From positions 1 through 35,231 of IMG/VR virus record IMGVR_UViG_3300025132_000134: DNA of 35,231 bases, one strand, 5' to 3'. The translations under genes and the position numbers were made by a program. Positions within the stretch are counted from its first letter, which is position 1. Each line of letters begins with the position of its first letter. The notes under the pieces were generated by a model. It did no database searches. It worked only from the letters and a program-made list of their open reading frames with translations, and was not told the DNA's origin. The DNA comes from a virus. This document shows, piece after piece, positions 1 through 22,016 of the stretch.

Positions 1-3000
1 CCTGCCGTATCCCATTTCATCTAAAGCCTTATTGAGTCCTTCCGCTCCAAGAGCTTTCTCGTTGAAGATCATCCCGTGCTTGCGGTATGCCTCCATAACT
101 TCCGGGTGGCTCTCGATGTAGTTGGCGGCATTAGCTATGAAGTTCCGATACAGCTTCCACGTTGAGATTGTGTTCGCCATTCCTGACTGTCTTGCAATCT
201 GGGAGAAGATGGCTTGCGGTCTGAACACCGGGAATGCTCCCTGCCCCTGCTCTGTAGAGCCGATACCAGTTTCAAGGAATGCTCTAATCCCCCTTGACGC
301 TCTTTCCACACCACGAGTGAAGATGTTTTGACCGATCATCTCGTCCGTCATGTTGGATCGAAACTCTGTCATAAACCGCTTGAACCACCCGCCTTCGAGC
401 GAGGCTGTTGAATCGTCGAGGCCAAGCTCTCTCATCAAGGCCATGTCATCGTGTGCGAACTTAATGCTCTTGTTAAATATCTGGAAGAAACTGCCAGCTC
501 CAATACCTAAAGAGTGATAGATATTGTTGGCCATCATCGTGAAGCCAAAGCGATTTAGCCCCATCTTCTTGTAAGGCTGATCCACAATGGAGATGGTATC
601 CATTAGGGAAGTGCCGGGAGATTGCACGATAAGACCAGACAAAGATCGCACTAGGTCATTCCAAACTGTGAACTCTAAAGCTGAATCCCTTTCCTTGGCC
701 AAGTAGGATTTGAATGCAGTCTCAATGCCGGCCATAAACCTTCTTGTCCTAACTGAATCACGAAGAAACTTACCTGAGTATTTTGGCCCAGCTACTCCCT
801 CTTGTTTCTTGGCGGCAAGCTCATCGTAAACCTTGGTGTACCTTCTAGTTGCCCAGTTCGTAACCCTAGAAAGCAGACCCATCTTGCCGATCTCTCTTTC
901 AATCTCCCTATGAAGGGCTACCGCTGCGCCTAAATCGTTGTCAGCTAAACTAAAATCATTTGCTACCTGCACCATGTCCCGTCCGAACGCAGATTCAGCG
1001 GCAAGGTTCTTAACATACTGATACATCCTGCGCTCCGTGAAGTCAGCGTAGTCAACCCATTCGAGAGGGAAGTCATTGAACTTACGGGCATCCATCATAA
1101 CGTGCATCGGGACTGCTCTCTCCCCATCGAGGAAGCCATCCTTTTCCTGCTGCTCTCCAATAACCTTATCGAGCTTGTAGAAGAAGTCTTGGAACCTGTC
1201 GATGATCCCGGCTTGAAAGTCTCTAACGCTGCCCTCTTCCACCTTGGCCCTGACTGCAAGCTCATTAAGGAATGCCATCATGTCAGCTCCTTGTGGGCCG
1301 CGACTGCTTTCAAAAGCCTCCTCGACCCATAGCCTTGGTATCCTTACTCCATCAACATCGGTGAAGACACTTGCACCTGGTCGCTTGATGATTGGGGCGG
1401 CAAACTCGTTAACAGTTCGTAAGTTCCCGAATCTATCTTGGACGTAATTCTCAAACTCTTCCTGTGTTAATTCCTCAAGCTGTTTCTTTGTGGCTGCCCT
1501 TGATCTATTCCATGTATCTCTCAGGAACCCATGCACGTTGCGAGCGACATCATTGGTCATTCGCATAGTGGTAGAAATGCTGGAACCTATTCTCTCCCTA
1601 AAGTAACCCATCTCCTCATCGTAAACCAATACCCCCATCTTGGAACTGATGTCTGCGATTTGACGGGAGTTGACTGCTGTTTGTTTGTATAAGGCTTTGA
1701 GTTCCTTTTCTGCCCCGGCAATATCGTTTCGTAAGTCACCTGCTTTTAGGGAGTTTATCCATGAATCAATTAACCTGTTTTCACCTTCCTCCCTATTGGA
1801 TGCTTCGTTCAGTATGTCCCTTCGGTGGTGGAAATACTGCATTGCTGGGCTGTAGAAAGCTGCCTTGAATTGGTCTATGTCATATTCCTTGCCGTTCCGG
1901 TTCACCTTAGCCATCGCCTCGGATAGCTTCTTACTCCATATCTTACCGTTCCTGACGGCAGACTTTGTTCCGCTCCCTGCGTGTGAAGCTATGTAGTATG
2001 CGAACTTTTTGATCTGAGCAGCAATCTTGGCAGCAGCAGGGGTTCCCACCATCTCCAGCTTGTCGGTTATGCTACCCAACAATCTTACCGTGAAACTGTT
2101 GCTGAGTTCTCGGTGGTACTGAATGGCTTGAACTTCCGTCATCCTGTCCACCATGCGTTTAATCATGTTGTACTCGCCGCCGCGCTTCTCTGCTGGTTGA
2201 GCTTTAAGCCAAGCGTTCATCTTCTCGATGTCTTGTACCAACGAGCCGATGTTCTTCATGTCCAGCAGGTTCAGCAGCCTGTGGTTGGAAGGGTTCTTTA
2301 AATCAGTAATGTTGGATTCCGGTGTTGGTGGAACTACATACTTGGCTCCATCTACTGCGGTCCACTCCTTGCCGTTAGTGGCAATGCTCTCGAACCAATT
2401 TGGGAAGATGCTCTCCTTGTTAAACAATGCACCAACTCCCTCCCTGTATGTGGCTAGTGGTTCATCGAGTAACTCCTTTAACTTGATGTCTCGCTTGTGA
2501 GTCTCCAAGTCCATGTGGATAGCTCTCGACTTCTCCTGCTCTGCTATTAGCTTCTTTAAGGCCAGCCTTGTCTTGTATGTAAGCCTTTCAAACGCTGCCG
2601 TTCTTCCTCCTATTTTTCTAATATCAGAGTCCCATCCATCAATGGCTTCCTCTGTGCTGCCTGAGATTGCAGCTTTGGTTGCCTTGCTGAACGCCTTCTT
2701 AACTCCCGTGGTATCTTTCTCCCTCCTTAACGCAAGCATCGTTATTAAGGAAGGCTGGTTCCTAGCCACGCTAATCGTTAAAGCTAAAGTTGCTGCATCT
2801 TTAAACACATCCAACCTAGGATCACCAAGCTCCGCTATTCTGGCAGCGATTCCTTTTGCTGATCCCTTCCCCCAATCCGAGATTTCCCTAGCCAGTATTT
2901 CTATTGCATCAATCAGCTTTCCGTCCTTGTTGGTTCTTAACCGCTTGATTGCATTTTGTATTTCCTTGTCCGTTGCCTTGAGCCTGAGTTCCTTGAGAAC

Positions 3001-6000
3001 CGTATCAATCATCTTGTCGGCTTTATCGGCCTTGCCCTTGGCTAACTCCTCTGAGATTGCGGCAACATTATTCTGAATCCATTCAATGTTCTCGTAGTTT
3101 GAAGTCAGCTCAACGATTGATATTTGAGATTTTTTATGCTGGCTGGCTGTTGAATTTGTTCTGTCTAATCTTAGTTCCTCATTGGCAGCTAGGTACATTT
3201 TGTCCAACTGCTTCTGGATCGAATCAAGGTACCCATCCAAGATGACAGCCGCAGCCGGACGGGCCTCCTCAACTTCGAGGTCATCCATTTGCGTATCTTT
3301 AAGGTCGGGGTCTTTGGCGATTTCCAAGGCTTTCTTGATTCTTTCATCAGGTAGATTCTTGGTTAACCAGTTTACAAATTGTTCCTTCTTGAGAGCAGAG
3401 TATTTAACTCCACCCTGCCGCTTGAATGAATTGAATAAGCCATCGAGTATTCGGTTTAGCGCATTGTTAGCTGCAATCGTTCTTTGAGCCTCCATCTTAG
3501 AGGCCGCCAAATCTTCCTCGGACATATCAGCCCGATCTACGGTGAACCTGATGCCGGCCCACCTGATGTTATGCTCTACTGCCTCTGGTGAATCTCCGAC
3601 CACCAGCTTGTACTCCTTGCTGAGTGTGGACAGATCGTAGATAGAGTTGATGACTGAATCAGAATCCTGCAAGGACATCATGTTCATCCTCTCATCCACG
3701 CTGTACTTGTACCCAGAAATCCAGCTTATGTACTTGGGAGCCTTGTTACCTGTAAGCATCGCCTCCACCTGTACCTTAAAGTAGTTGAGGGCTACCTGAC
3801 TATCGTTGCCCATCATGCGGTGGAATGCCTGAGTCACAAACCGGAGGACATTCTTCAATCCATCAACAATCTTTCGGGCTATGGAACCGGAGGTTGTCGG
3901 ATCAAAGTTCTCACTCATCAAAGCCTCTGCAATAGCTTCAACCAATCTTTCCTCCTGCTGCACATCGTCAAGGCTTTCAGCGTCCTCCAATGAGAACTTG
4001 TACTTGCGCCCTCCGATCTTCAGAACTGCGTCATTCAGCTTTGTTATAGCTGCCAGTACACGTTGCCTATCCTTTTGTGGCATATCAGCCGTGACTGCGT
4101 GACCGACCTCATGGATCAGATCGTAAAGGTTTTGCGTGGTAGGATTCTCAAGGGAGTTCATCGCTATCACGATCACAGGCTTGCCGTTTGCCAAACCAAA
4201 TACGGCCTTTGCTTCAGACGCAGCGTTGGCAAATTCACTTTCAATCAGCTCAACCTGTATGCCCATGTTGCGAAGCCTCTCGATAATGAACGCGAATACC
4301 TTGTTGATTTTCTCCTGTGAAACCTTGGGGTATGCGTTGTCTGGTCTGTCTGGGGCTGATCGCTCTGAGGCTATCTTCGATCCGGACGATGGCTGGTTGA
4401 CCCGCTGCTTATTCCCTTGGTCATCCGTGTAAAATTCTAACTTCTTTAAATTGTTGGCTTGTCTAAATGCAGGATCATTGGATTGCGCCTCGGTCATCCT
4501 GACAACATTGCCATCTGAATTGATTTCTACATGAGTTGTTGCCGGGGCTTCGGTTTGAGTTTCTTCCGTAGTGGCTGCCTCACTTACCACCGCCTCACGA
4601 GAGTTTGGATCTACCTGCTGCTGACCCTTATCTACAATATTATCTAGCTCGTTGTCTGCTTCTTGGACTGCCGCTTCTCGTATTTGCTCGCCAATAAATT
4701 GAGTAGACGAACTACTGAGGAACGATTCAACGAACTCTTCTTTTGTTTCTGTTGTTTCATAAGTGTTTTTAATTAAGTCGGTTAACGCTTGCAGGAACTT
4801 ATCGCCGTTTTCAGATGATGCTTTTCCTACGGAATCCAGTAAATCGTTTAACTCCTCATCAGTTAACCTAAGTTCTTGTTCGAGGATCAGATCGCTTATC
4901 TCCACCCCGGCGGCTTCTTTTTCGGCAATGGAATCCAGAACTTTATGGAAGGCTAACGCCCCTCGCTCTGTGAGTATCTGCGGCTCGAAGACATCTATGT
5001 CCATCTCGTCCTCGACAACAGCCTCCTCCGCTACAGCCATGCCCTCTCCAACATCGGTGGGTTCATCGACAACGGCTTGAGCTGATCCAACTCTGGCTGC
5101 CTCCATCCCCCTCGCACCGGATACATTCTCTCCTGTCCTAGATGTTTCATCACCTACGAACACCGGCTCATTCTTTTCTACAATAGAGTCAAGCGATGTA
5201 ACCTTGCTGACTGCCCCCTGTGATACTTGTCCAAGGAAAGCAGGAGTTTGTTTTACTTCAGTCTTAATATCCTCGAATATCTTTTGATACTCCTCGACTG
5301 AATCTATCCTGTAGTTGAGTTTGGGAACTGGAGTCTTGAGACGGATTGAAGCAAATGGAACAAACCCTTGTGCAAGCAAGTCCTCGAAAAGCATTCCTTC
5401 ATATCCAGCCTTGCTGTCTACCTTTGTCTTTGGAGGGACAACGGCATACCGATCCTTTTGCCTACCGTATCGGTGTAACCCTAAAACCCATATCTGACCG
5501 TCAGGCCCAACGAATGATATAAGCCTCCTTGTGTCTGATGTATCACTTGCTGTTGCCCCTCTTGCCAGTTGGGATGCAAGCTCCTGTGCAAGCCTAGCTT
5601 TCTCCTCCGCTGTGGTTGCATTGTTGTAAGCCTCAAGGGTGATCGTAGCTTCTCTGCCCCATTGGGTTGACTGCGTGGCATCGTTGGTTCCGATTTCGTA
5701 GTAGGCTGGGCCAGCTTTTTGTTCCCTGTCTTGCTTCTCGGATTCCTTTTCTGAAATAGCACCTTGAGCGTGGGCTGGCATCCAGTTTGTAGACGGGGTG
5801 CTTGGATCGGTGATGATGTCTATGTTGCGAATATCAAGCGGGTTGATCTTATCCTGATCCGAAATGCGTTGCTCTGTTACTTCAACTGCTAGGTTGGTTT
5901 TTATGAAGTCATCAACAATCTTGTCGTAAATATCTTTGCCCCCAATATCAATGACTACATCAGGATCATTAACATCCTCCTCGGTGTACCCTAATTCCTG

Positions 6001-9000
6001 TTTGGCGATTTTCTGAATGTCTCGCTCGATCTGCTCAACCTCTTTTACCTTTTCATCTATTTGGCTTTGTTTGCTGTCTTTGGTTTTCTTTGTGACAGCC
6101 TTTTCCTTTTGGGTTGAAAGATTACCGATCTGAACATTTAGCTTATGCTGCCTGTCTTGTAGCTTTGAGATGGTGTTTACATTTGATCTGCCTCTTTGAA
6201 TCCTAGCTTTCTCTTCTGCTGTTGCAGTCTTATCAAGTTCATCAACTAGCTCATTAAATCTTTTTACCGCATTATCTTTTCTTTCTTTCTGCTTTTCTAA
6301 TCGGTTACGCGCACCCTGCGTCATGCTTGCGCGAGCGTTATCCTCATTGTTGGCTAGTGCTTCGTTTTGTTCTGCTGCATTTATGTCATCGAACTTAACT
6401 TGAAGAGTGTTTCTTGCTCTTTCGTGATTAGCTATCTCATCTACTATGCGCCTTCCGTCTTTGAGGGTTGTTTGTCCCACTCTGAGTCTGGCGTTATATC
6501 TGGCTATTGATAGATTGTGGCCTTTTATTTTTTTCTTTAACTCACCGGCAGTTAGGGCCGCAACCGGCTTTGTTATTTCTTCTGCTTCATCAATTCTTTC
6601 TAGGTCAGCCTCAATCTGGGTAAGTTCATCCTCGGCAACTTCTAATCTAGTGCGTCCGGTAGTGATGCCAGCTTTAGTCGGCCTCAAGTCCCGCCCTGCC
6701 ATTGGGCTTTCTTGCTGCTCCCTTTGTTGTTTGGTTTGTTTGGCTGACTCTTTGGCTTTTGGCTTTTCCTTTTTAAGTTGAGCGATCTCCTTCTTAACTG
6801 CGCCCCTTCGAGCCTCCAATGACTCCCTGCTTTCAACTGGGCCAACCGTTCTCGCCCCTTCCAGCCTACGGGAAACCATTCCTGTTGCATCAGGTCGCCG
6901 GTCGATAACACCTTCCGTAAATCTGATTAACCTAGTTGCCTCGTCCCTGCTTAATCCTAACTTTGCAGCAGCCTGACCCGCCCTGACACCAGCCCTTAAC
7001 TTCTCCCTTACTTCACCCTTTAATTTCCTTACTCCCTGTATGCTGGTTTCGGTTTCCTCGATGAGTTCCTGTAGCGCAGCTTGATCTTCCCTGCCAAGCT
7101 CCATGCGCCGCATCTCCCTTAACTCATCAGTTAGTTGCTGCTCTGTTGTTTCTAGTGTTACAAGGTCTTGCTCAAGTTGCTCTCGCATTCCCTGGCGTAG
7201 CTCCTCAAGCGCAGCCCGGTCATCAGCAAGTTCTTGTTCTAGGTTGTTAAAGTAAGCGGCGTTCTCTGCTGCCTCTTTTTCTTCCGCAGATGTCTTGGCT
7301 AACTCCTCTTCGTGTTCCCTGATTCTGGATTCAAGTCGTGTCTCAATATCAAGATTCTGCTCTGCTTGAAGCACTCTCTCTTCAAGGCCAACAGCCTGTG
7401 GACGGCGTTCATCTACTAGCTGCAAACTGGGATCGGGCCTTGCATCTAATCCGTCATTAATTCTGGCTATCTCTTTGTTAAGCTCACTAATTTGCTCGGA
7501 CAGTTCTTGTCTTCTGCCATCCAGCATTTGCTCATAGTTAGCCTTCGTGTCGGGGTCAACTTCCCTAGACACCATTGAAGTTGAGAGATTGAGGTCGTTG
7601 TTTACATCCATCAACTCGGATGCCAAACGGTTTCTCTCGTTCAGTAAATCACTCCTTTGGGCGTAGGCTCCAGCCGTGTCACCCTCAACGATATTAGACG
7701 GGGAGACGGCAATGGTATCGTCAATAGCGCGGCTTGCTCTTTTCTCTGGGTTGGCAATCTCACCTGCGCGTGTGTTGATAACATTTGATGCTCGATCTGC
7801 TGCTCTGCGGGTGTTGGCCAAGAACAACTCTGCCTCAAAGATTAACTGGGCATCAGCGTCTTCACCTACCAATTCCTTATGGCGATCCGCAATCTTCTGC
7901 CTTGCCTCGATGTCCTGTCCTGTTGGGTCTAGCTCTAATTGTAGGGCAACCTGTTCAGCTACCTCTTTAATCTCTTCCTCTCTGCCCCCCGTGTACGAAG
8001 CTCGTGCGTCTGCAACGGTACGCTCTACGTTATCCGGTTCAGTAAATCCTTCATTCTCTACGAAACTGGCAGTCCTAGAATCCTCGATGTCCTTAACTTT
8101 TCTGGTAAGCGAGCTGGTGAGTAGTGAGAGAATTGCACCAGATACACCACCGGCAGCAGCATCCCTTTCCAGATCAGCAAACATCTCCCTGTCTGGATCG
8201 TACTTAACTATGTTGGCAGCAATGATGTCACCGGCAACTCCTTGGAATACCTCCTGCCCTGCTTCCTCGAGAGTTTCAACGCCGGCATTGGCTAGGTAGT
8301 ACATCGCGGTACCGTTGCTGGCATTGTCCAAACGATTCAGCATCCGGCCCAACGGCATGGCCTCACTTGTGCCTACCAATCCGTTCAGCAAGTAAGAGGC
8401 TAATGCTTCATCAGGTGTACCTCCGTTAGCCAAGGCATCCTTGTAGCCAGCAGTAGCATTTGCAGCCGCACCCAGCGCACCAACAGAACCATAGTTTAAC
8501 TGTGCGGATTTGCGCTTTATGTACTTATCTGCCGCAGCTTTACCCTGTTGCTGGGCGATGTACCCTCCACCCATAGGCATTTGCCGCGCCTTGTCTATGC
8601 CCTCTTTTACAAGTTTATCGGCAGTCTTCTTGAACCCAGTCCCAAGCGCAGTTCGGGCAACCCCTGACGTAACACCGCCACTAAAAATGAAGCCGACACC
8701 GGAACCCAGCGCACCGGGAACTGTGCTTTGCCAGAAGCTATCGGCCATCCTCTCGGCTTTGGTAGGTGCAACCTCTGGCGAGACGTAATCACCCACCCCG
8801 CGAATCCCTTCAGCCAGTTGGCCCATTAAGGTTTCGCGATAATCAGTTGTCCCGACACCCAGCCCACGGCCAAACGCTTCGGTACGAGCAATGCCTATGG
8901 CTTCGGGGATCGAGGCAATTGTCCCAGCTACACCCTCTACAAACTTACCAGCAACCTGCGAAGCCCTGTCGCCAACGGTTAAAGGGAAGGCTTCGTCATA

Positions 9001-9156
9001 GATGCGTCCGTAGTCCTCTCCGAAATCGGGGTATGTCTTAACCAGATTCGGCAACTGATCCGCATACTGCTCCGCATAGAACAACGTGATCTCATCATCA
9101 GACATCAACGTGCCAGGATTTTCCTGACGATAGAAGTCTACAATCTGGTTTGGCAT
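1..9156 (-). CDS. Giant polyvalent/ejection-type virion protein with zinc metallopeptidase motif (partial, C-terminus outside window)
   Basis: The frame is open from ATG at 9156 to the left edge: 3052 codons with no stop in the lines I checked, and landmarks at both ends stay in one frame. Residues 1-360 are Gly/Ala-rich with short hydrophobic helices (about 143-168, 219-234, 333-353). About 500-1055 is a charged Glu/Lys/Arg/Gln coiled coil. About 1115-1300 looks globular and is followed by an acidic linker. HEVGH at 1682-1686, with a downstream ERLVEAIAE near 1736-1744 that could supply the third zinc ligand, marks a gluzincin-like domain. The remaining 1300 residues are mostly helical and unrecognised. 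Size, position last in the tail operon and an internal HExxH fit the phage large polyvalent proteins, which are packaged and injected with DNA; T7 gp16 is the positional analogue. The ATG has no Shine-Dalgarno sequence and lies 12 bases past a promoter-like motif. The coding call is secure; the role is inferred. Confidence 0.93.
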   Translation of the reverse strand, partial: MPNQIVDFYRQENPGTLMSDDEITLFYAEQYADQLPNLVKTYPDFGEDYGRIYDEAFPLTVGDRASQVAGKFVEGVAGTIASIPEAIGIARTEAFGRGLGVGTTDYRETLMGQLAEGIRGVGDYVSPEVAPTKAERMADSFWQSTVPGALGSGVGFIFSGGVTSGVARTALGTGFKKTADKLVKEGIDKARQMPMGGGYIAQQQGKAAADKYIKRKSAQLNYGSVGALGAAANATAGYKDALANGGTPDEALASYLLNGLVGTSEAMPLGRMLNRLDNASNGTAMYYLANAGVETLEEAGQEVFQGVAGDIIAANIVKYDPDREMFADLERDAAAGGVSGAILSLLTSSLTRKVKDIEDSRTASFVENEGFTEPDNVERTVADARASYTGGREEEIKEVAEQVALQLELDPTGQDIEARQKIADRHKELVGEDADAQLIFEAELFLANTRRAADRASNVINTRAGEIANPEKRASRAIDDTIAVSPSNIVEGDTAGAYAQRSDLLNERNRLASELMDVNNDLNLSTSMVSREVDPDTKANYEQMLDGRRQELSEQISELNKEIARINDGLDARPDPSLQLVDERRPQAVGLEERVLQAEQNLDIETRLESRIREHEEELAKTSAEEKEAAENAAYFNNLEQELADDRAALEELRQGMREQLEQDLVTLETTEQQLTDELREMRRMELGREDQAALQELIEETETSIQGVRKLKGEVREKLRAGVRAGQAAAKLGLSRDEATRLIRFTEGVIDRRPDATGMVSRRLEGARTVGPVESRESLEARRGAVKKEIAQLKKEKPKAKESAKQTKQQREQQESPMAGRDLRPTKAGITTGRTRLEVAEDELTQIEADLERIDEAEEITKPVAALTAGELKKKIKGHNLSIARYNARLRVGQTTLKDGRRIVDEIANHERARNTLQVKFDDINAAEQNEALANNEDNARASMTQGARNRLEKQKERKDNAVKRFNELVDELDKTATAEEKARIQRGRSNVNTISKLQDRQHKLNVQIGNLSTQKEKAVTKKTKDSKQSQIDEKVKEVEQIERDIQKIAKQELGYTEEDVNDPDVVIDIGGKDIYDKIVDDFIKTNLAVEVTEQRISDQDKINPLDIRNIDIITDPSTPSTNWMPAHAQGAISEKESEKQDREQKAGPAYYEIGTNDATQSTQWGREATITLEAYNNATTAEEKARLAQELASQLARGATASDTSDTRRLISFVGPDGQIWVLGLHRYGRQKDRYAVVPPKTKVDSKAGYEGMLFEDLLAQGFVPFASIRLKTPVPKLNYRIDSVEEYQKIFEDIKTEVKQTPAFLGQVSQGAVSKVTSLDSIVEKNEPVFVGDETSRTGENVSGARGMEAARVGSAQAVVDEPTDVGEGMAVAEEAVVEDEMDIDVFEPQILTERGALAFHKVLDSIAEKEAAGVEISDLILEQELRLTDEELNDLLDSVGKASSENGDKFLQALTDLIKNTYETTETKEEFVESFLSSSSTQFIGEQIREAAVQEADNELDNIVDKGQQQVDPNSREAVVSEAATTEETQTEAPATTHVEINSDGNVVRMTEAQSNDPAFRQANNLKKLEFYTDDQGNKQRVNQPSSGSKIASERSAPDRPDNAYPKVSQEKINKVFAFIIERLRNMGIQVELIESEFANAASEAKAVFGLANGKPVIVIAMNSLENPTTQNLYDLIHEVGHAVTADMPQKDRQRVLAAITKLNDAVLKIGGRKYKFSLEDAESLDDVQQEERLVEAIAEALMSENFDPTTSGSIARKIVDGLKNVLRFVTQAFHRMMGNDSQVALNYFKVQVEAMLTGNKAPKYISWISGYKYSVDERMNMMSLQDSDSVINSIYDLSTLSKEYKLVVGDSPEAVEHNIRWAGIRFTVDRADMSEEDLAASKMEAQRTIAANNALNRILDGLFNSFKRQGGVKYSALKKEQFVNWLTKNLPDERIKKALEIAKDPDLKDTQMDDLEVEEARPAAAVILDGYLDSIQKQLDKMYLAANEELRLDRTNSTASQHKKSQISIVELTSNYENIEWIQNNVAAISEELAKGKADKADKMIDTVLKELRLKATDKEIQNAIKRLRTNKDGKLIDAIEILAREISDWGKGSAKGIAARIAELGDPRLDVFKDAATLALTISVARNQPSLITMLALRREKDTTGVKKAFSKATKAAISGSTEEAIDGWDSDIRKIGGRTAAFERLTYKTRLALKKLIAEQEKSRAIHMDLETHKRDIKLKELLDEPLATYREGVGALFNKESIFPNWFESIATNGKEWTAVDGAKYVVPPTPESNITDLKNPSNHRLLNLLDMKNIGSLVQDIEKMNAWLKAQPAEKRGGEYNMIKRMVDRMTEVQAIQYHRELSNSFTVRLLGSITDKLEMVGTPAAAKIAAQIKKFAYYIASHAGSGTKSAVRNGKIWSKKLSEAMAKVNRNGKEYDIDQFKAAFYSPAMQYFHHRRDILNEASNREEGENRLIDSWINSLKAGDLRNDIAGAEKELKALYKQTAVNSRQIADISSKMGVLVYDEEMGYFRERIGSSISTTMRMTNDVARNVHGFLRDTWNRSRAATKKQLEELTQEEFENYVQDRFGNLRTVNEFAAPIIKRPGASVFTDVDGVRIPRLWVEEAFESSRGPQGADMMAFLNELAVRAKVEEGSVRDFQAGIIDRFQDFFYKLDKVIGEQQEKDGFLDGERAVPMHVMMDARKFNDFPLEWVDYADFTERRMYQYVKNLAAESAFGRDMVQVANDFSLADNDLGAAVALHREIEREIGKMGLLSRVTNWATRRYTKVYDELAAKKQEGVAGPKYSGKFLRDSVRTRRFMAGIETAFKSYLAKERDSALEFTVWNDLVRSLSGLIVQSPGTSLMDTISIVDQPYKKMGLNRFGFTMMANNIYHSLGIGAGSFFQIFNKSIKFAHDDMALMRELGLDDSTASLEGGWFKRFMTEFRSNMTDEMIGQNIFTRGVERASRGIRAFLETGIGSTEQGQGAFPVFRPQAIFSQIARQSGMANTISTWKLYRNFIANAANYIESHPEVMEAYRKHGMIFNEKALGAEGLNKALDEMGYGR

Positions 9157-9168
9157 TTAACTATTGAA

Positions 9169-9179
9169 TTTAGTGTTAC
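9169..9179 (-). promoter_or_regulatory. Phage-type promoter motif (GTAACACTAAA), site a, before the giant gene
   Basis: Exact 11-base copy of an element found at five module heads. Its TAA (9176-9178) is also the stop codon of the upstream 595-residue gene. If transcription starts just after the motif, as in SP6 and T3 promoters, the leader before the giant gene's ATG is only about 12 bases and AT-rich. Confidence 0.7.
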
Positions 9180-10963
9180 GGTTTAGGCGATGTACCTAGG
9201 CCCGGAATCTTTGCCCCTGTTGCTTTTTCTGCTGCTGCCTTGAGTGTCTTTAAGTCGGCCCCAATCTGGTCAAGCTCTCTGAATAAATTAGGGACTTCCT
9301 CTTGTTCTGCCTGTAGTTGCCCTGCGGATTTCTTGAAAGTTTGAAAAGGTGCGCGACCACCAACAGGTGCGCCGAGAGGGCTTGCCATTTTTTGAGTTTC
9401 TGAAATTGACGGGACTCCGCTTGCATCTCTAGCTGCGCCCATTTCTGTTAGTCTATTCTGAACAGTTCGCTGCTTTGACTCTAAGTATTCTATCGCTTGT
9501 TGAACCCTGCCTAATGGGGAGTTATCACCAAGGCCAATCATTTCCCCTACCCCCCCTCTAGCGAGCCGACCTGTAAACCAAGTTTCGTCCAGAAATGTTT
9601 CGGCTAGTTCAAGTGGAGATTGCCCACCCCCTTCAGGTTTCTTCATTAGCGCACCAGCCGCCCCTCTTACTTCTGGCGTTGCGTATTTAGTCGATACCTT
9701 CTCATTTGGTTTAGGCAAAGGCGCACCAGTTTTCGCGGGTGTTGCAGGAGTGCCAGTACCGGGAGTCCTCGCACCTGCACCGAGGGCTGGCACGTTGGCT
9801 GCCGGAGGTTTACCAGCATCTTTATTCAAAGCATCGGCCTGATCCACAAACGCCTGACTCATCATATCAAACTCTTCACGCAATAATGGGCCATAGGTTT
9901 CATGCTCGAATAAAATGTCCATCAGCTTCAACTGGGACGGCACAAGTTTGACGAATTCTGATCGCAGTTTACCGAAGTCCTGATAAGCCATGTCCTTCTC
10001 TAGAAATTCAATCGCCGCAGTATTATCTGCTTTCCCCATTCCGAGTGAATTTCCACCTTTCAACTCTCCGAGAGCATCCTGTTTAGCTTGCTCGAACAAA
10101 ACTCCTACCCGAGCAGCATCAGTTGGAGTCATACTCCTGTATCCTCTTCCGGTTTCTTCCAGAAATGCGTTAGGGTTAATTTGAAATCTTGCTCGCTGTT
10201 CCTCATTTAATAAACTTTTCCATTCTTCATTGTTTGCAAGCACCCCGGCTACCGCTAAGTGAGCTGGCTTGGCTCCCGGCACGTTAGATTGAACCGCTCC
10301 CAAATAGGGAACCATTAGCTTGTTTAGGTTTTGAGAGATGGGAGCAGCAATACTCTGAAGCTGTTTAAGCATATTCTGAAATGCTGGTTGCTTCTTTAAG
10401 AGTTCATTTTGTCTGCTTTGTTTTACGGATGAAACAACGGGTTCCAGTTTCGCTCGCAAAGCCTTTAAGTCATTCGGGTTCATCTCCTGTTGAAGACGCT
10501 CCAAATTTATAGGGCCGTATTCGAGATTAAATTGTGCCGCTACTTCTGGGTTATCGGTAAGCAGTCTGTCTATGTCATCTTTGTGTGCGGTAAACCATTC
10601 CAAAGCTGGCATATTAAGCTCGTAGTCATTCTTCAATTTAAGGAGTTGATCCTTGTTCAAGCCCTTGTAGTTCAGCCCGTACTTCGCTGCGGTTTCTTTT
10701 AAGGCAAGTAGCTTCTGGGTTTCCTGCAACTTTGATGTGTAATCCCTAGCCTCGTCCCTAACATCTGCCGCATAACGCCGCGCATCTTTCTGCCTTCCGT
10801 AGTAAGATAATTCAGCCCGTCTCTCTGCTTCAATCTTCCTGTCCTCGGCGCGTTCCTCTTGACGCTTGGTAAATTCCTCGGCCCTGTTGAGCCTACGAAG
10901 TTCCTCGTCCTCCTTAAAAGTGTCGGCCACTAGGCCCATTGCCACATCAAATCCGTTTGCCAT
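9176..10963 (-). CDS. Putative internal virion/ejection protein, 595 aa
   Basis: I recognise no catalytic domain. Residues 15-85 are a dense charged coiled coil (Glu/Arg/Asp-rich, no Pro). The middle, to about 380, is helical. A low-complexity Ala/Pro/Gly/Thr linker follows at about 388-425, then a second helical part and a helical C-terminus ending in a Pro/Gly tail. It sits between the 402-residue gene (one base away) and the giant gene, which is the place of T7 gp15-type core proteins between tail tube and gp16. That position and the coiled coil suggest an internal or ejected protein. Its TAA stop lies inside promoter motif a. Function is inferred from synteny only. Confidence 0.85.
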   Translation of the reverse strand: MANGFDVAMGLVADTFKEDEELRRLNRAEEFTKRQEERAEDRKIEAERRAELSYYGRQKDARRYAADVRDEARDYTSKLQETQKLLALKETAAKYGLNYKGLNKDQLLKLKNDYELNMPALEWFTAHKDDIDRLLTDNPEVAAQFNLEYGPINLERLQQEMNPNDLKALRAKLEPVVSSVKQSRQNELLKKQPAFQNMLKQLQSIAAPISQNLNKLMVPYLGAVQSNVPGAKPAHLAVAGVLANNEEWKSLLNEEQRARFQINPNAFLEETGRGYRSMTPTDAARVGVLFEQAKQDALGELKGGNSLGMGKADNTAAIEFLEKDMAYQDFGKLRSEFVKLVPSQLKLMDILFEHETYGPLLREEFDMMSQAFVDQADALNKDAGKPPAANVPALGAGARTPGTGTPATPAKTGAPLPKPNEKVSTKYATPEVRGAAGALMKKPEGGGQSPLELAETFLDETWFTGRLARGGVGEMIGLGDNSPLGRVQQAIEYLESKQRTVQNRLTEMGAARDASGVPSISETQKMASPLGAPVGGRAPFQTFKKSAGQLQAEQEEVPNLFRELDQIGADLKTLKAAAEKATGAKIPGLGTSPKP

Positions 10964-10964
10964 T

Positions 10965-12173
10965 TTAATTATTTATCCTTTGCTGGGTTTGAATTATTGA
11001 GTCCTGAGTTTGTTTAACTTTATCAGCTTGGTTTTGCACATTTTGCATTTTATTTCTCATCATTATGTCCTGTAAAACATTGATGTTGTGGGCCTTGATG
11101 TCACCTCTCCCATAAAGGTATCTACTGTATTCTGAGTTATCCAAGTTGATGTACTCTCCTGTTTCCTTGACGTAAATAACAGGTGGGACTGGGCGGTTTT
11201 CCGTGTCTAGCTTGTCTAGCAAAGCCTCACTCTCGCTTAACGTATTGACTACAACAGGCAGAAGCATCCTATCATCTGGGACGCTTGCGGGATCACCGAG
11301 TTCCACCACCTTTCGCAGTTCATCCGTGGACAGTAGGGAACTTGGCGCGAAATCAGAAAATATCTCGTTTGCCTCCTTGTCAAGACGCGCCTCTTTATCA
11401 AGCCGCTGTAACTGCTCGGCCTCATTTTTAACTGGTGTTTCCCCGTATACAGGCATCTGAGCAGGGGGCAGGATACCCTGTCTGGCAACAGAAGCAGGAG
11501 TAGCTGGCATTGCTGGTTCGGCTGGTGGAGGTGGAGCTATTTCGCTTGTTCCAAAGTAGGGAGAATCTTTGACTCCTTCCTCGAAGTTAGGGTCTTCCTT
11601 TGCTCCCGGTGATAAGTCTCCCTTAAATGCTTTGATCGCCTTGTTCATTTCCTTCAGCACATCGACAAGTTCCTTCTGTTCCGCTGGCTTCTCCTGTTTA
11701 GGTTGAGGCTTTGGCTTATCCTCTTGAAGCATGAACTCTTTTTCTGGCCCCTTGTATAATGTTGCTGGGTCAAAGTCTTCCTCCTCGTCTTGTTGCGATT
11801 GAGCAAGCATCTGATCTATCACGGAATCTAGTTCTGCTATCTGAGCTTCCTTGGATTGTTCCTCTGGTGTTCCTTTGGCTGATTCATAGGCATCCTTCAT
11901 TCTGCCAAGGAAAGAACCTACCGCTCCCATAGCTGGAGTTGCTACCGGGGCTGGGGCTGGAGGAGCATAATCAAATTCTTCAGCAGGGCCGCGCATCTGA
12001 TCTAACCTCATCGGTCTGTCGTTGCGAAACCTTTGTGGGGCTGGCGTTGGTGTCGGTTCTGAAACAATGGTAGCCTTTGGCACGGCTCTCATATTTGCCT
12101 CCCTTAAGTTCTGCATCAGTTCGCGCCTACGGATGCCCCCCATGCGAGGCCCAAGTTTTTGCATTTGTGCCAT
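10965..12173 (-). CDS. Putative virion protein with Pro-rich linkers, 402 aa
   Basis: No family recognised. The N-terminal 40 residues are basic. Two Pro/Ala-rich stretches (about 40-80 and 210-235) separate a strongly acidic helical segment (about 100-185). The C-terminal 60 residues are rich in Gln, Asn and Lys and probably coiled coil. Its ATG overlaps the TAA of the preceding gene (TAATG at 12171-12175), so translation is probably coupled. The beads-on-linkers architecture and the position among three consecutive unknowns before the giant gene suggest an internal virion or ejection component. No enzymatic motif is visible. Confidence 0.82.
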   Translation of the reverse strand: MAQMQKLGPRMGGIRRRELMQNLREANMRAVPKATIVSEPTPTPAPQRFRNDRPMRLDQMRGPAEEFDYAPPAPAPVATPAMGAVGSFLGRMKDAYESAKGTPEEQSKEAQIAELDSVIDQMLAQSQQDEEEDFDPATLYKGPEKEFMLQEDKPKPQPKQEKPAEQKELVDVLKEMNKAIKAFKGDLSPGAKEDPNFEEGVKDSPYFGTSEIAPPPPAEPAMPATPASVARQGILPPAQMPVYGETPVKNEAEQLQRLDKEARLDKEANEIFSDFAPSSLLSTDELRKVVELGDPASVPDDRMLLPVVVNTLSESEALLDKLDTENRPVPPVIYVKETGEYINLDNSEYSRYLYGRGDIKAHNINVLQDIMMRNKMQNVQNQADKVKQTQDSIIQTQQRINN

Positions 12174-13384
12174 TATCCTATTCCAATTCCTTTACCGATC
12201 TTGTCCATGCCTCCCCCTGCCTTATACATCTGATCGAAAATTTTAGTCATCAATCCTGATTGTATCTGGCCGCTGGATGCCACGGGTTTAAATTGAGTGA
12301 ACGGTGAATAGGTTGCAGTTGGCACTCCACTTATCTTTGCAGGAGCCATCCAATCTGCCCTTCGTCTTTGGTATTCACCTGCCATGTCGGACGGAAGCGA
12401 TGCAAACTGTCCTGCTTGCTGTGCCATCGTTGCCCCTAAACCTAGGTTACTGAACTTCGCCTGTCTGTCTGCCTCCTGTATCGCAGCTCGACGCTCGGCC
12501 TGACCGACATTCATGTCTCCTCTTAAATTTGCTAATGACTCGTTAGCCGCCAACCTCATCTGCGCCCCTAGTTTTATGGCTCCTAATCCTTCTGAATCAG
12601 TTCCATAACTTGCGGCGTTTCTAGCCTTTAACGCATTCAGTTCTTGGGCTGTCTGAGTATCGTAGGCATCAGCAATTCCAGCGATCCTTTGCCTCTCTGC
12701 CTCCTCAATCGGTTTAAGTTCTGAGAGTTGTTCCTGTAACCTTTGGCCACTAAACAATCCTCTGGCCTGTTCTCCAGCAGCATCCACCGTTGGCTGAAAT
12801 CTTTCCTGTATTCCCCTAAATGTTTCTAGCGATTCTTCCGGTGTTAAGCCTTGGTCATAGGTAGCCATCAAGTCCCTACCCATTTCCTTCTCGAATGGCT
12901 TTACCGCAACAGGCTCCAGCTTGGCTATCAACTCGTCCCTGTTGAGAGTTTCAACCCCTTTCTTCCGCAGCCTAGTTCCCCCAAAAAGACCAGAAAGGCC
13001 ACCGCGCTTCTTTACTTCCGTGGTGTACTCTGTTCGGTAGGTAGGCTCGACCCCATATCTCTCAGCAACTTGCAACAGTTGTTGGTCGCTCATCTTGTTG
13101 AGAAAACCTGGGGCATATTCTCCTCGGTACAAGTAGTTTGCTAGGTTTGTGAATCCATACCCGCCAGTAGACAATAAGCCCTGTTCAATAGACCGCCTAA
13201 AGGCTAACTCGTTTTGCTCTATGGCTTTGGCGTATGCCTCCTGCTGGCTATTGGATGCACTCTTTCCTGCTTGGCTGGCCCCGTACATCTTTCCAGCCAA
13301 CATAAGGGCTGTTGTGATCCACGCTTGAGAGACTTCTGAGTTGCCTCTTAACAGAACGTATAGGTCTTGTAACAGTTCAATCAT
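12173..13384 (-). CDS. Putative internal virion protein, gp14-like by position, 403 aa
   Basis: Near the N-terminus (about 18-36) is a moderately hydrophobic, Ala/Gly-rich helix. It is followed by a Gln/Ala/Ser-rich helix, a pattern common in podoviral gp14-type core proteins that insert into the host envelope. A Gly-rich turn with basic residues occurs near 110-125. The rest is helical and rich in Ala, Gln, Glu and Arg, with a Pro/Thr-rich C-terminal part. It is the first of three ejection-candidate genes after the tail proteins. I infer membrane or virion-core association from the N-terminal pattern and order; no homology search was possible. Confidence 0.82.
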   Translation of the reverse strand: MIELLQDLYVLLRGNSEVSQAWITTALMLAGKMYGASQAGKSASNSQQEAYAKAIEQNELAFRRSIEQGLLSTGGYGFTNLANYLYRGEYAPGFLNKMSDQQLLQVAERYGVEPTYRTEYTTEVKKRGGLSGLFGGTRLRKKGVETLNRDELIAKLEPVAVKPFEKEMGRDLMATYDQGLTPEESLETFRGIQERFQPTVDAAGEQARGLFSGQRLQEQLSELKPIEEAERQRIAGIADAYDTQTAQELNALKARNAASYGTDSEGLGAIKLGAQMRLAANESLANLRGDMNVGQAERRAAIQEADRQAKFSNLGLGATMAQQAGQFASLPSDMAGEYQRRRADWMAPAKISGVPTATYSPFTQFKPVASSGQIQSGLMTKIFDQMYKAGGGMDKIGKGIGIG

Positions 13385-13385
13385 T

Positions 13386-14348
13386 TTAAATAACTCCGTA
13401 AACTTCTAAGAAGTCCAGCTCTGCTTTGTAGTCTGCGCTGGCCCCTTCTTTGTATAAGTAAATTGTTTCTGTCTCAGGATTCCCCCCGTCAAACTCCGCA
13501 ATCAATGTCTGCCAAGGTGCGTACTTGATGTCCGTTGAGGCTGTTGCGGAACTGTCGCTGTATGCCTTACCTGATGGGACTTGCATCTGAGGTATTTCGT
13601 AAGACGGAGCTACCCCGACGGTACCTTTGTAAAACTGTGCAGTTAAATCCACGTTGTGACCTGCGATCATTCTTAGTGTAGCTTTTATTATGATACGCGA
13701 ATAAGAATTACTGGCCAAGGAGTAGGAAGTTATCTGTGATCTGTCGGTTGATGGTGCGTGAGTTAATACGTCAGATTCAACTGTGGCAATTTTAACAATG
13801 CCCGGATCAGAAACAGACAGGTTGCTTAACAGGTGGAAAGTGTTACTCCCTGCATAGGCAACCGCTATGATCTGATTGTTTTGCAGGTCGCCGCTTACGA
13901 GGTTGGCAGTCGTGCCGTTCTTTTTGATTGGCCCTTGTGTTGTGACACTATCAGTTGTGACGTTCATCGTTACGGAATCGGTGTTCGTCCCGTTAACCTT
14001 GATGTAGATGACACTTCCAATCGCAGGTGCAGCCGTCAGTCCAGTTAGAGATACGGTTATCTGGTTAACGTCTGCATTAGAATCCTCTGCGTAAAACAGA
14101 GTGGACAGCTTATCGTAACCAACAGTCGCGTCTGACAATGCGCTTCCGTTAACTGTACCTGATGTTGTCTTGATTGACCCGTTGGTTTCGTGGGCCACTA
14201 GGAATTTTGTAAAGTCACCTGTAACTCCGTTGGCAAGATTTATGAGGTTATCATCCATCTGCGTGGAGGTTAAGGCTTGTCCTATGGCAGTTGCCCCTGC
14301 TCCACTTTTGGAACGTAGCGTTAAAGCAATTTGGTTTGGGTCTGGCAT
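13386..14348 (-). CDS. Putative tail fibre/structural protein, 320 aa
   Basis: Residues 1-100 contain the phrase TSTQMDDNLINLANG and repeated short Thr/Ser/Gly/Asn-rich strands, typical of the shaft start of phage fibre proteins in which trimeric beta structure replaces helices. The C-terminal half is predicted beta-rich (alternating Tyr, Ile, Val, Thr). It may be a compact knob or carbohydrate-binding jelly roll; that is a guess. ATG overlaps the previous stop (TAATG at 14346-14350), as for its neighbours, so it belongs to the tail operon. It could be the receptor-binding or a minor tail protein. Confidence 0.8.
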   Translation of the reverse strand: MPDPNQIALTLRSKSGAGATAIGQALTSTQMDDNLINLANGVTGDFTKFLVAHETNGSIKTTSGTVNGSALSDATVGYDKLSTLFYAEDSNADVNQITVSLTGLTAAPAIGSVIYIKVNGTNTDSVTMNVTTDSVTTQGPIKKNGTTANLVSGDLQNNQIIAVAYAGSNTFHLLSNLSVSDPGIVKIATVESDVLTHAPSTDRSQITSYSLASNSYSRIIIKATLRMIAGHNVDLTAQFYKGTVGVAPSYEIPQMQVPSGKAYSDSSATASTDIKYAPWQTLIAEFDGGNPETETIYLYKEGASADYKAELDFLEVYGVI

Positions 14349-16273
14349 TAGCTTAAAGTTGGTTGTCTAATTTCACTTGAGCTTGATACCATACTTACAT
14401 CAAAAGTTCTAGCGGCAAGCCGTACATTTTTAAATTCCGTTGCTGTTATCTCGTCTTGAAACAAGTGACTCCTAAAGAAGCAAGGAACTAGGTTGCGTGT
14501 TGCTGGAGTCGTTATTTGAAATCCGTTAACTAGGGTCGTTGCTGATCCGTATGCGTTTGCGTATCCGTAAATTTTAATAGTCAGCACAGCGTTCTCCTCC
14601 TGCTGGCTGGCGAGTTGAACGAGATACCCTCTGAAATCCTTCTCGTTGTAAGCATCCCCAAAGTTAGCAAGGCCGCCTTTAAGTTTGCTGGAATAGGCCA
14701 CTTCGGAAGTTGAGTAAGAATTGGTGCGTCTGTAGTAGATGGCCTTCTTGTTACTCCATTCAGACTCATCCTCATTTGATAGGCCGTACCTAAAGATTGC
14801 GCCTTGGGCTGTACCCATTATGAACCAATCCTGATTAGTGGCTGGCGGCTTCTTGATGCTGGCGGCTGCGCTAAATGATCCTGCTGAAGTGGAAGCGGTA
14901 TTGTTTCTGTAATCGTAGCAAATCGCAGAGTCATCTGACAGGGATGTGAAGCAAAACCAAATCTCATTAGTCAGCACATTATCGGCAGCAAATACATCGT
15001 TCGTGCTACCTATTTCATTCTGATCAAAAAACACATTCTTCACAGCGGCCAGTTGGCTCAACTCCTTTGGGCCGCCGCTTGTTAAATCAAATGAGTAAAA
15101 GCTATCTCTACCTGCGTAAACATGGCTGTTCTTAACGGGGATAAGTGTGTGTTTGTAGTAGAGAGCCTGAGTGCTGGGAATAGTGATGACCCTAAACTTA
15201 AACGGGATATTAGTGTTACCTGTGTACTGACCCACAAAGATCGAGGTGTCCTTGTAAATCACGATCATGTTTTGCAGAGGGGCCAACCCGATAATACCCG
15301 ACCCATCCCCCATTAAATCCTCAAATCCTATGATGCTTCCAATCTCTGCCGTCTGCATCACCGGAGAATCACTAACTGTAGTAGACGCAGCTTCGTCGAT
15401 AAACAGAGTGTTGTTTTTAATTGATGCTACATTTGCTGTAAGATTACCGCCGTTTGTCCCTGCTCCGGTAATTGTTATCTGGTCGCCCACCTGGATTGAA
15501 CTGACTGCGTAATCTAGTGTTACAGTCTGAGAATCTGCATTGATCGCCCCCTTTGTTGTTGCGGCAAACTTTAACGGTTCCTTGATTTGCGACCAGATGA
15601 GGCGGTTATGAAACCTAGTTGTGTTGGCAGTAACCACCCCGTAAGGGCTGCCCCCCTGCATCCATGCCTTGAGGTCATCTATCTGATCAATGTCACCAAG
15701 CATAAGGATGCCCGAGTAGACTGCCATTGAACCGACGGAGGATATGCCGTTCTCTCGAAGCTCGTAAAGTGGAGTGACCGTCTCCTGTTCAACTCGGTAG
15801 GACACAGGCAGGTCTACGCCATTATTAAAAATAGTGTATCCGTTTAGATCAACCGCTTGCCAACGATTACCGTTCGTACTGAACCCGCTACCTATTGTGA
15901 TCCAGCTATCAGGCGTTGTATCAAAGTAACCTGCCTCGATGTAATCACTAGGAACATAAGAAATATCGTCACTCTTCTGGTATCTGTAGAGGTGTGTCTT
16001 GGTTCCGACGATGATGGCCACCTCTCCATTAGGGCGGCGCACCATGTGGATTAAATTGATTTCGCTACTGGAAGGGAAGGCGTTGCTTGATGCGTCACTT
16101 GTACCGGATGGACTAAAGTATTCGTAGCCTTCACGCCTTACCTCTTGATCCAAGTCCCTGCGCCAATCGAGCTTCTGAACATAGTTAGCAGGGCCAGCAA
16201 ACTCATGGGACAATGCGGTAAACAGTTGCCCTCCGTCAGTTGGCCTAGCCGTTATGTGTTTGTACTTAGCCAC
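14348..16273 (-). CDS. Putative tail nozzle/tail tubular protein B-like, 641 aa
   Basis: The N-terminus reads like the P22 gp10 / T7 gp12 class. After a short basic start comes a run of beta blades with statements such as EVAIIVGTKTHLYRY (about residues 83-97), the recurrent value-then-display pattern of these nozzle proteins. Later Tyr/Phe-rich strands (YAGRDSFYSFDL region) look like further propeller blades. The length is close to phage nozzle proteins (600-800 residues). It lies after the adaptor-like 246-residue gene and a fibre gene, as in podoviral tail modules. No membrane segment is seen. The match is by pattern and position; an alternative is a fibre-base protein. Confidence 0.8.
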   Translation of the reverse strand: MAKYKHITARPTDGGQLFTALSHEFAGPANYVQKLDWRRDLDQEVRREGYEYFSPSGTSDASSNAFPSSSEINLIHMVRRPNGEVAIIVGTKTHLYRYQKSDDISYVPSDYIEAGYFDTTPDSWITIGSGFSTNGNRWQAVDLNGYTIFNNGVDLPVSYRVEQETVTPLYELRENGISSVGSMAVYSGILMLGDIDQIDDLKAWMQGGSPYGVVTANTTRFHNRLIWSQIKEPLKFAATTKGAINADSQTVTLDYAVSSIQVGDQITITGAGTNGGNLTANVASIKNNTLFIDEAASTTVSDSPVMQTAEIGSIIGFEDLMGDGSGIIGLAPLQNMIVIYKDTSIFVGQYTGNTNIPFKFRVITIPSTQALYYKHTLIPVKNSHVYAGRDSFYSFDLTSGGPKELSQLAAVKNVFFDQNEIGSTNDVFAADNVLTNEIWFCFTSLSDDSAICYDYRNNTASTSAGSFSAAASIKKPPATNQDWFIMGTAQGAIFRYGLSNEDESEWSNKKAIYYRRTNSYSTSEVAYSSKLKGGLANFGDAYNEKDFRGYLVQLASQQEENAVLTIKIYGYANAYGSATTLVNGFQITTPATRNLVPCFFRSHLFQDEITATEFKNVRLAARTFDVSMVSSSSEIRQPTLS

Positions 16274-20099: not shown

Positions 20100-22016
20100 T
20101 TAGGAAACAGTTACGTCAGCTCCAGAAACGGTCACGCTAGGTGAGGCATCGCTGAAGTTCTCAACCATTGCATGACGGTTAGTGTTACCGACACGCACCT
20201 CAAACGTCTTACTATTCAACTGATAGTGGCTGACGTTCGGCTGGATGACGCAGTTGTAGAGGTCATCAGCGGTGTTGGTGGTACGCTTCACGCTCGCAGT
20301 CTTGAGGACGTTGATCGCAATGTCAGACCAGTCGATGAGCCACAACTGACGAGCAGTATTCTTGGTGGTTCCCGACACGCCTTGAACAGCCATAGCACCG
20401 TGCGCTCCGAGCTTATCGTCGAAGAACGGATCACAGAAGACAGCCAAGCTAACACCCTGATCGGGCAAATCGTACTTGTTGTACTCGAAGACAACCTTAC
20501 CCTCGAAGGTGATCTGCTGCTTCGGCTGCATGAACAACGTCAGGTCAGTAGAATACTTCGACTTGTAATACTTGGTCATCAGATCACGAATCTTGGCAGC
20601 CGTGAAGCGGTCAGTCATCGCGTCGATTGTATCAACAGTACCACCGGAGTTTTCACGCTCCCGCTTAATCATGTAGCAAGTCTCGAACAGAACGTCCAAG
20701 TTCAATGCTGCACCAGCGTTATCCCAGATGCGGGAACACTCACTCAACTGAGTACGGATGCCCAAGGTGTTGGACTTGTACTCGATTGTCGGAGCCGAGC
20801 TACAGGTATCAGAACCAAATGGAGCAGTAGCCCCTGTGTTTGGATCAACAACTGTCGGAAGGCTCGTGTATGTTTCCACCTTCTGATTAGAGTTGATGCG
20901 CTGCCCGTAGAACACGGTGTTCATAAAGGCGTGTTGGTGATATTGCTCCTGCTGCTTGCGCTGCTGGGCCAATGGGAGCTGCCGGAACTTCTTGAAATAC
21001 TCGGAAGTTAACGGAGCTTGCAGAGCCTTGATGTACTCCTCGTTGAACTGTGTAGACCACCGCTGAGTTTGCGACCAGTATTCAATCAAGGTGAGGTCAT
21101 TCACGGCTGGCCCCTGCTCACACCACTTCTCGTAGTCGCTTACAGAGTTGCCGAGAATCATGCCAGTACCGGCTACTAGATTGTATCCAGCATCAGCCTT
21201 GTTGGTAGCAGAAGCAGAACCCCATGCGGTTTCGATTGAGTCACCACTTGCGCCAGAAGCATACTCACTAGGAGCAACTACGATGCGAGCCTTTTCGGTG
21301 TTACCACTTCCAGTTCCACTTGCAGTAGCGTCCTGTGCGGCCAAGACCTTGTACTGAACATAAGCAATTTCAGCGGCAGCCTTGGTTGTGTTGGTATCGT
21401 TACCCCCACCCAGTTGTGTGCCGTTTGTCATCACGTTGATGTAAGCACCCGGATGGAAATACTTGGCCAAGTCCTGCACCTGACTCTTGTTAAAGTTCGT
21501 GTTGGTCAGGGCGTTGGAGTTACCAGAAGGCGAACCATCTGTACCAGCGTTGACCGTGAGAATGATAGCCGAGCTAGGAATCCAGCCGTAGTTTGTGCTT
21601 CCTGCACCGGCAGAACTAATGTCACCCGTGAAATCACTCCACGTTACAGAGCGAGCTTCAACTTGGAAGTAGTTAAAGTTCAAAGTGTTGCGGCGAGGAA
21701 CCAAAGTGAACGGGGCAATCACAGACTGCGACCCTCCACCAGATTTCTCTCCTAGTGCAACGTGCCTTGAAAGTAACAAGTCATACAGGGATTTCTCGTG
21801 CATACCAGCAAGGCGAGCCTCGGCGGTTTGTGCGATGATCCTGTCCATCCCGACTTCCTTAGCCGCTTGAGCCTCGAAGTCGCTGCGTTTGAAGGCGGTT
21901 ATGTTCGCCCTCGTTAATGAGCATCCACGACTGTCATCGACAAGGATATGCCGAGGGGAACAGTTATAGATGTTGGCCGTATCTTGGGCCGAGCTTTGTA
22001 AGGTAGTCGTAGCCAT
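20100..22016 (-). CDS. Major capsid protein, 638 aa
   Basis: The call rests on gene order (portal, small gene, scaffold, this gene), the strongest ribosome binding site in the window, and composition. Codons favour C-ending forms more than the neighbours, as expected for the most abundant protein. The length is well above the usual 300-450 residues of HK97-fold capsids. A Ser/Gly/Asn/Thr-rich region (about 145-270) could be an insertion domain or surface spike. The C-terminal 130 residues (LAVFCDPFFDDKLG onward) look like the conserved beta-rich P-domain/A-domain end. The N-terminus (about 40-85) is helical, like an N-arm. A terminator follows directly. Confidence 0.88.
   Translation of the reverse strand: MATTTLQSSAQDTANIYNCSPRHILVDDSRGCSLTRANITAFKRSDFEAQAAKEVGMDRIIAQTAEARLAGMHEKSLYDLLLSRHVALGEKSGGGSQSVIAPFTLVPRRNTLNFNYFQVEARSVTWSDFTGDISSAGAGSTNYGWIPSSAIILTVNAGTDGSPSGNSNALTNTNFNKSQVQDLAKYFHPGAYINVMTNGTQLGGGNDTNTTKAAAEIAYVQYKVLAAQDATASGTGSGNTEKARIVVAPSEYASGASGDSIETAWGSASATNKADAGYNLVAGTGMILGNSVSDYEKWCEQGPAVNDLTLIEYWSQTQRWSTQFNEEYIKALQAPLTSEYFKKFRQLPLAQQRKQQEQYHQHAFMNTVFYGQRINSNQKVETYTSLPTVVDPNTGATAPFGSDTCSSAPTIEYKSNTLGIRTQLSECSRIWDNAGAALNLDVLFETCYMIKRERENSGGTVDTIDAMTDRFTAAKIRDLMTKYYKSKYSTDLTLFMQPKQQITFEGKVVFEYNKYDLPDQGVSLAVFCDPFFDDKLGAHGAMAVQGVSGTTKNTARQLWLIDWSDIAINVLKTASVKRTTNTADDLYNCVIQPNVSHYQLNSKTFEVRVGNTNRHAMVENFSDASPSVTVSGADVTVS

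Follow-up and report, generated by a model that had tools for sequence, protein, structure and literature searches.

What a phage would do with a protein of more than 3,000 residues that carries a metallopeptidase-like motif in its interior is the question raised by the 35,231-base virus record analysed here, referred to below as the window. A first-pass annotation of this record had pointed to a giant zincin-bearing protein delivered into the host with the DNA. Here, the frame, its active site, its relationship to the virion RNA polymerase (vRNAP) of phage N4 and its genomic surroundings are considered in turn, and this proposal is weighed against other explanations.

Extent and domain layout of the giant protein

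The gene lies at positions 1 to 9156 on the minus strand and lacks its 3′ end. As the first-pass annotation had claimed, the frame is uninterrupted: it begins with an ATG at 9156 and stays open for 3,052 codons, up to the left edge. This ATG is the true start, since all full-length relatives begin with M-(P/A)-N-x-x-V. In those relatives, 1,806–1,851 residues separate HExxH from the C-terminus, a nearly constant distance from which the complete window protein can be estimated at about 3,490–3,530 aa, with some 450 residues missing. The long C-terminal part reported earlier is likewise real, as 1,366 residues follow the motif within the window.

The N-terminal domain (residues 1–400; 7957–9156, minus strand) is Gly/Ala-rich, opens with the conserved start M(P/A)NxxVxxYR and contains mildly hydrophobic segments; by analogy with the N-terminal domain of N4 gp50, it may be a membrane-active part. 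The hydrophobic N-terminal helices proposed at first hold up only as mild hydrophobicity, with Kyte–Doolittle maxima of 1.32–1.33, much like the 1.39–1.47 of the N-terminal region of N4 gp50. The middle region (residues 401–1590; 4387–7956, minus strand) is charged, helix-rich and coiled-coil-like, varies from 502 to 1,389 aa among relatives and has no invariant positions in its first 700 residues. Within it, the stretch at about residues 500–1080 had been described as coiled coil; it is highly charged and aromatic-poor, but its helical periodicity exceeds that of shuffled sequences in only two of six 100-residue blocks, so that "helix-rich, partly coiled coil" is the most that can be said. 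The small globular island noted earlier is present at about residues 1200–1300 (5257–5559, minus strand), is conserved in sequence at about 1200–1290 and is recognisable in relatives, and the acidic linker is also there, at the end of the middle region. The zincin domain (residues 1600–1860; 3577–4359, minus strand) is followed by a C-terminal helical region of near-constant length across relatives (residues 1861–3052, plus about 450 more past the edge; 1–3576, minus strand).

Pfam, PHROG and PDB searches with the whole protein and with pieces of it returned only sub-threshold, chance-like matches, and no lytic transglycosylase domain was matched in Pfam or PHROGs by either. For the family as a whole, no Pfam entry exceeded the cut-off; DUF6782, a putative metallopeptidase, appeared at E 0.06–0.17 in some relatives.

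Relatives and lineage

Isolate phages searched with both halves of the giant protein yielded no match, nor did they with the capsid and portal proteins, and the terminase reached only about 24–28% identity. In IMG/VR, about five related lineages carry full-length homologues of 2,804–3,731 aa, with pairwise identity down to 21%: G001 (3,731 aa), G008 (3,157), G004 (3,236), G003 (2,804), G005 (2,810), G006 (2,816) and L087 (3,151). The N-terminal 400 residues are also common to these relatives. Locus L084 was left out as an extra lineage, being an apparent duplicate of G004 with the same length and ends. In G002, the giant gene spans the contig ends, which overlap by 177 bases with 3 mismatches, an indication that the genome is complete at about 70.5 kb. 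When genome contigs were searched with a profile of the C-terminal alignment, neither a provirus nor a host came to light. By sequence comparison, this is an undescribed phage lineage without a close isolate.

Two further observations concern gene content. L079 (G012), a more distant relative whose terminase is 50% identical, shares the head genes and lacks the giant gene and the cysteine-free block after the phrog_3287 gene; its ejection genes are either elsewhere or lost. G001 carries CobS- and CobT-like cobalamin (cobaltochelatase) genes as auxiliary metabolic genes (L062:16057–19478, plus strand).

A conserved gluzincin-like active site

The HEVGH motif at residues 1682–1686 (4099–4113, minus strand) was confirmed as the sole HExxH in the protein, with 0.024 expected from composition, and is predicted to provide two histidine ligands and the catalytic glutamate. 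The downstream glutamate mentioned in the first-pass annotation can be placed at E1740 (codon 3939–3937), the predicted third zinc ligand, which closes the segment QEERLVE (residues 1734–1740; 3937–3957, minus strand) and is invariant in all homologues. All of them show HE[IV][GAN]H and, 50–53 residues on, QEERL(V/A)E, while overall identity drops to 21%. An unguided alignment of five family members and four N4-type C1 domains left H1682, E1683, H1686 and E1740 as the only invariant columns, and these are the four residues expected to serve as ligands and catalyst in a gluzincin-like site.

AlphaFold2 models were weak (mean pLDDT 62.8 and 51.8). The zincin model, built from eight sequences and with a mean of 62.8, places HEVGH on a helix at 1674–1688 and E1740 on a second helix at 1729–1747, both at pLDDT of about 80. 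The earlier proposal had been staked on HEVGH lying on a zincin helix with a third ligand; the two successive predicted helices agree with it, but the sheet ahead of the HExxH helix, where pLDDT is low, was not resolved. Because the model is weak, Foldseek searches against the PDB and BFVD gave no significant match. On the combined evidence, a true zincin fold is likely.

In 8 of 8 homologues and in the 13 N4-type proteins examined, the catalytic E1683 is conserved just as strictly as the zinc ligands. Since all 13 N4-type proteins collected also retain HExxH and a downstream glutamate (in EF, EL or EM), catalysis looks selected in both groups, and the conservation of the catalytic glutamate argues for real catalysis. 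This bears directly on the view that the site is structural, with zinc serving folding, packaging or allosteric control and proteolysis not being needed. N4 provides some encouragement for it, as the MPTase-containing region of vRNAP is needed for encapsidation (PMC5512222) and the C-terminal domain regulates the polymerase, according to PMC12633501; yet a structural zinc site would not require E1683, which is kept throughout both sets, and a purely structural role appears improbable.

Probable kinship with the N4 virion RNA polymerase

In N4, the C1 domain of vRNAP corresponds to residues 2124–2375 and is described with an HExxH motif in PMC12633501; Iyer et al. classed it as MPTase (PMC5512222). 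HELVH is found at residue 2228 of N4 gp50, inside C1. When the whole-family alignment of the giant protein was slid along the N4-type C-terminal alignment, the sole significant region was the zincin against C1 (E 4e-4 and 1e-3), the best slice reaching E 5e-5 over 106 columns; reversed controls gave 0.12–0.17, and the best shuffle scored 22 against 41. Repeats with the 13 N4-type sequences gave E 8e-5 to 1.6e-4, with reversed controls at 0.03–0.13. Single-sequence hhalign against N4 found nothing, and only family-to-family profiles matched. The match is of moderate strength, and specific kinship between the zincin and N4 C1 is probable rather than certain, because part of the score is shared zincin geometry.

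Such kinship raises the matter of a polymerase. The N4 RNAP domain (residues 998–2103) and PF00940 were searched for in eight related records, three of them long (63–71 kb), with no match. As positive controls, the N4 domain query recovered N4 itself together with five of the six other Schitoviridae records tried (L101 was missed), and PF00940 was found in all four phages tried (T7, P-SSP7, N4 and a Litunavirus record). It is possible that a polymerase has diverged beyond the reach of both searches. With a polymerase looked for and not found, the giant protein falls outside the vRNAP family; an RNAP-containing protein and a T7 gp16-like one were both rejected as alternatives, with no match at all to either. 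Among replication genes, a DnaB-like helicase, an exonuclease and a ligase were seen, and these phages probably use the host RNA polymerase.

The likeness to gp50 of N4 and other Schitoviridae is nevertheless extensive. Both are Cys-free proteins of about 3,500 aa, encoded by the last gene of a portal–scaffold–capsid–ejection block, with a putative membrane domain at the N-terminus and a zincin-type C1 (HExxH, then Glu) that leads into a large helical region extending to the C-terminus. By position, the helical region is the counterpart of N4 C2 (residues 2376–3500), although it is about 500 residues longer and no sequence similarity to C2 is detectable. The main difference is that the RNA polymerase domain is absent here, its place being taken by the charged, helix-rich middle of variable length. 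Gp16 of T7 and of P22 offers a looser comparison: these proteins are also large, Cys-free and last or next to last of a Cys-free internal set, whereas the window protein is far larger and has a zincin instead of any transglycosylase match.

The label "polyvalent protein" given at first fits only loosely. Polyvalent proteins are likewise large phage proteins with an internal zincin-like MPTase and predicted co-injection with DNA (Iyer et al. 2017, PMC5512222), but no registered polyvalent or Pfam domain was matched by the giant protein. As for their multi-domain character, the window protein has one enzymatic domain, and a second, papain-like candidate occurs only in G001 and its near-identical relative G009.

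Gene neighbourhood

The giant gene ends a five-gene Cys-free block on the minus strand. Directly upstream lies the gene for a 595-aa protein (9176–10963), by position the counterpart of N4 gp51, with no sequence match to it; proteins of 402 aa (10965–12173) and 403 aa (12173–13384) belong to the same ejection block, and a 320-aa protein at its head (13386–14348) is appendage-like and may fall outside the ejection set. Beyond the block are a 641-aa virion structural protein of phrog_3287 (14348–16273), a relative of which weakly matches "phage stabilization protein", a 638-aa major capsid protein candidate, assigned by synteny from its position after the scaffold (20100–22016), a 787-aa portal candidate with a weak profile match to N4 gp59 (E 0.006; 23729–26092) and the terminase large subunit (26634–28145), all on the minus strand. 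The small and large terminase subunits together span 28800–26634 (phrog_2, E 6e-24). An 87-aa gene, a scaffold candidate, small connector-like genes and a 585-aa fibre-like protein lie on the same strand between terminase/portal and the block. The order portal–small gene–scaffold–capsid–…–595 aa–giant parallels gp59–gp58–gp57–gp56–…–gp51–gp50 of N4, and the Cys-free block ending in the giant gene matches the gp52–gp51–gp50 layout, while the neighbouring structural proteins show no clear relation to those of N4.

Several other genes of the window were also noted. A tyrosine integrase is located beside the terminase genes (29012–29932, minus strand; Pfam E 1e-17), and integrase-like genes occupy the matching place in G001 and G003; because of the integrase, the lineage may be temperate or formerly temperate. 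A 238-aa protein (31077–31793, minus strand) belongs to phrog_4776 (E 1.5e-37, unknown function), has no Pfam match and shows a YRG…SW…ESE pattern that reads like the R-S-E signature of ADP-ribosyltransferases. A 196-aa protein with a PPCTEF motif (33174–33764, minus strand) weakly matches C-5 cytosine DNA methylase (E 0.026) and has a close relative in G001 (L063:4791–5381).

Absence of cysteine and a papain-like insert

No cysteine occurs in the 3,052 residues of the giant protein; at the frequency seen in the other window genes (60 Cys in 6,211 aa), 29 would be expected. Across the block of 320-, 403-, 402- and 595-aa proteins plus the giant, none occurs in 4,772 aa, where 46 are expected. 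Cysteine is also absent from the known ejection proteins T7 gp15/16, N4 gp50/51/52, P22 gp7/20/16 and P-SSP7 gp15/16, which together total about 9,750 residues. For N4-like vRNAP, this absence has been published and tied to passage through tail and periplasm (PMC3715699, PMC3915230). The tape measures of lambda (gpH) and MED4-184 also contain none, for which reason Cys-freeness was dropped as a podovirus signature; judged by composition, it is a mark of proteins exiting through the tail, not of podoviruses alone. Scaffolds are likewise without cysteine.

The rule is strong but not absolute, because the L087 giant has one cysteine, within its C-terminal helical part. The G001 giant has two, at residues 1571 and 1574, both inside an insert (about 190 residues; L065:9181–9700, plus strand) that separates the linker from the zincin. 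This insert shows an NC…AHW…VVDDP pattern and weak matches, all at one place, to three papain-fold or C39-like families (E 0.04–0.18). Its cysteines, the only ones in the protein, sit where a catalytic cysteine would be needed, which is suggestive of a papain-like candidate domain. A search for the insert in other viral contigs returned only the same phage and a near-identical copy. In G009 (L078:4806–16000, minus strand), the near-identical giant gene is divided into two frames of 1,551 and 2,195 codons, and the split, an assembly error or a real frameshift, falls at the start of the insert.

Proposed role and competing explanations

The proposal of a giant zincin-bearing protein delivered with the DNA is supported by the conserved ligand set, the remote yet specific similarity to C1, the N4-like gene order and the Cys-free ejection block. 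We favour, with moderate confidence, a giant podovirus-type ejection protein with an N4-vRNAP-like build that lacks the polymerase and a zincin that probably acts after entry. Its position, size and Cys-free composition make an ejected virion protein very likely, while action of the zincin after entry is a tentative assignment with somewhat less than an even chance.

By analogy with N4, the head would most likely contain a few copies of the protein, which would enter the cell together with the DNA by threading, unfolded, through portal and tail. The mildly hydrophobic N-terminal domain would enter the envelope, and the helix-rich middle would serve as a spacer whose length can be adjusted; the C-terminal half, comprising the zincin and a helical domain of about 1,650 residues, would get to the cytoplasm and refold. 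The zincin (H1682, H1686 and E1740, with catalytic E1683) would be an active metallopeptidase after delivery, and its target could be the ejected assembly itself or a host protein.

The timing of this activity separates delivery from maturation. As a maturation autoprotease, the zincin would act during assembly, cleaving the giant protein or else other proteins of the head, and the virion would contain fragments; P1 DdrB, which carries an MPTase and is processed before packaging, sets a precedent (PMC5512222), and the variable acidic linker just ahead of the zincin would make an easy cleavage zone. That linker, however, shows no conserved cleavage-site motif, and vRNAP of N4, the nearest characterised relative, is packaged unprocessed (PMC5512222) and was purified without degradation according to PMC12633501. 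The unprocessed packaging of N4 vRNAP makes action after delivery likelier than maturation cleavage, for which the chance seems small.

The weakest rival, a tape-measure protein of a long-tailed (siphovirus) phage instead of an internal head protein, shares the constant ends, the helix-rich middle of variable length and the lack of cysteine, and among the phages weakly matched by the terminase is MED4-184, with a major tail protein and a tape measure in its record, but it is very improbable given that no major tail protein or tail terminator was found in the window by family search or annotation, that the genes just upstream encode three more Cys-free proteins and a downstream gene matches tail fibre families, that the 787-aa portal is close in size to those of N4 (763 aa) and P22 (725 aa), that the relative of the 641-aa protein matches "phage stabilization protein", and that the only profile match of the giant is N4 vRNAP C1. 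The podovirus placement of the favoured ejection protein rests on the N4-like gene order, the portal size, the weak N4 portal match and the weak "phage stabilization protein" link; a long-tailed phage is possible.

Biological significance

We know of no function for the C1 zincin of N4 vRNAP. That the same active-site domain occurs in a polymerase-less giant, from phages in which no phage RNA polymerase was detected, suggests a role for the zincin in delivery or host takeover and not in transcription. The eight homologues and at least 13 N4-type proteins, none of which has lost the active site, now form a comparison set that makes the zincin question testable, and a phage lineage without a close isolate has been documented. 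The complete lack of cysteine over thousands of residues may offer a simple compositional criterion for recognising virion proteins that exit via the tail, and ejection proteins could be detected in this way without any annotation.

A more speculative reading, which we regard as rather unlikely, is that the zincin and the helical C-terminal half form a general delivery chassis older than any cargo, onto which N4-like phages loaded an RNA polymerase. If this were true, the lineage described here would have fitted it with a spacer of variable length, plus a papain-like enzyme in a single case. The zincin would perform a step common to all; it might, for example, clear the conduit used for ejection or, once passage is complete, cleave a conserved host target.
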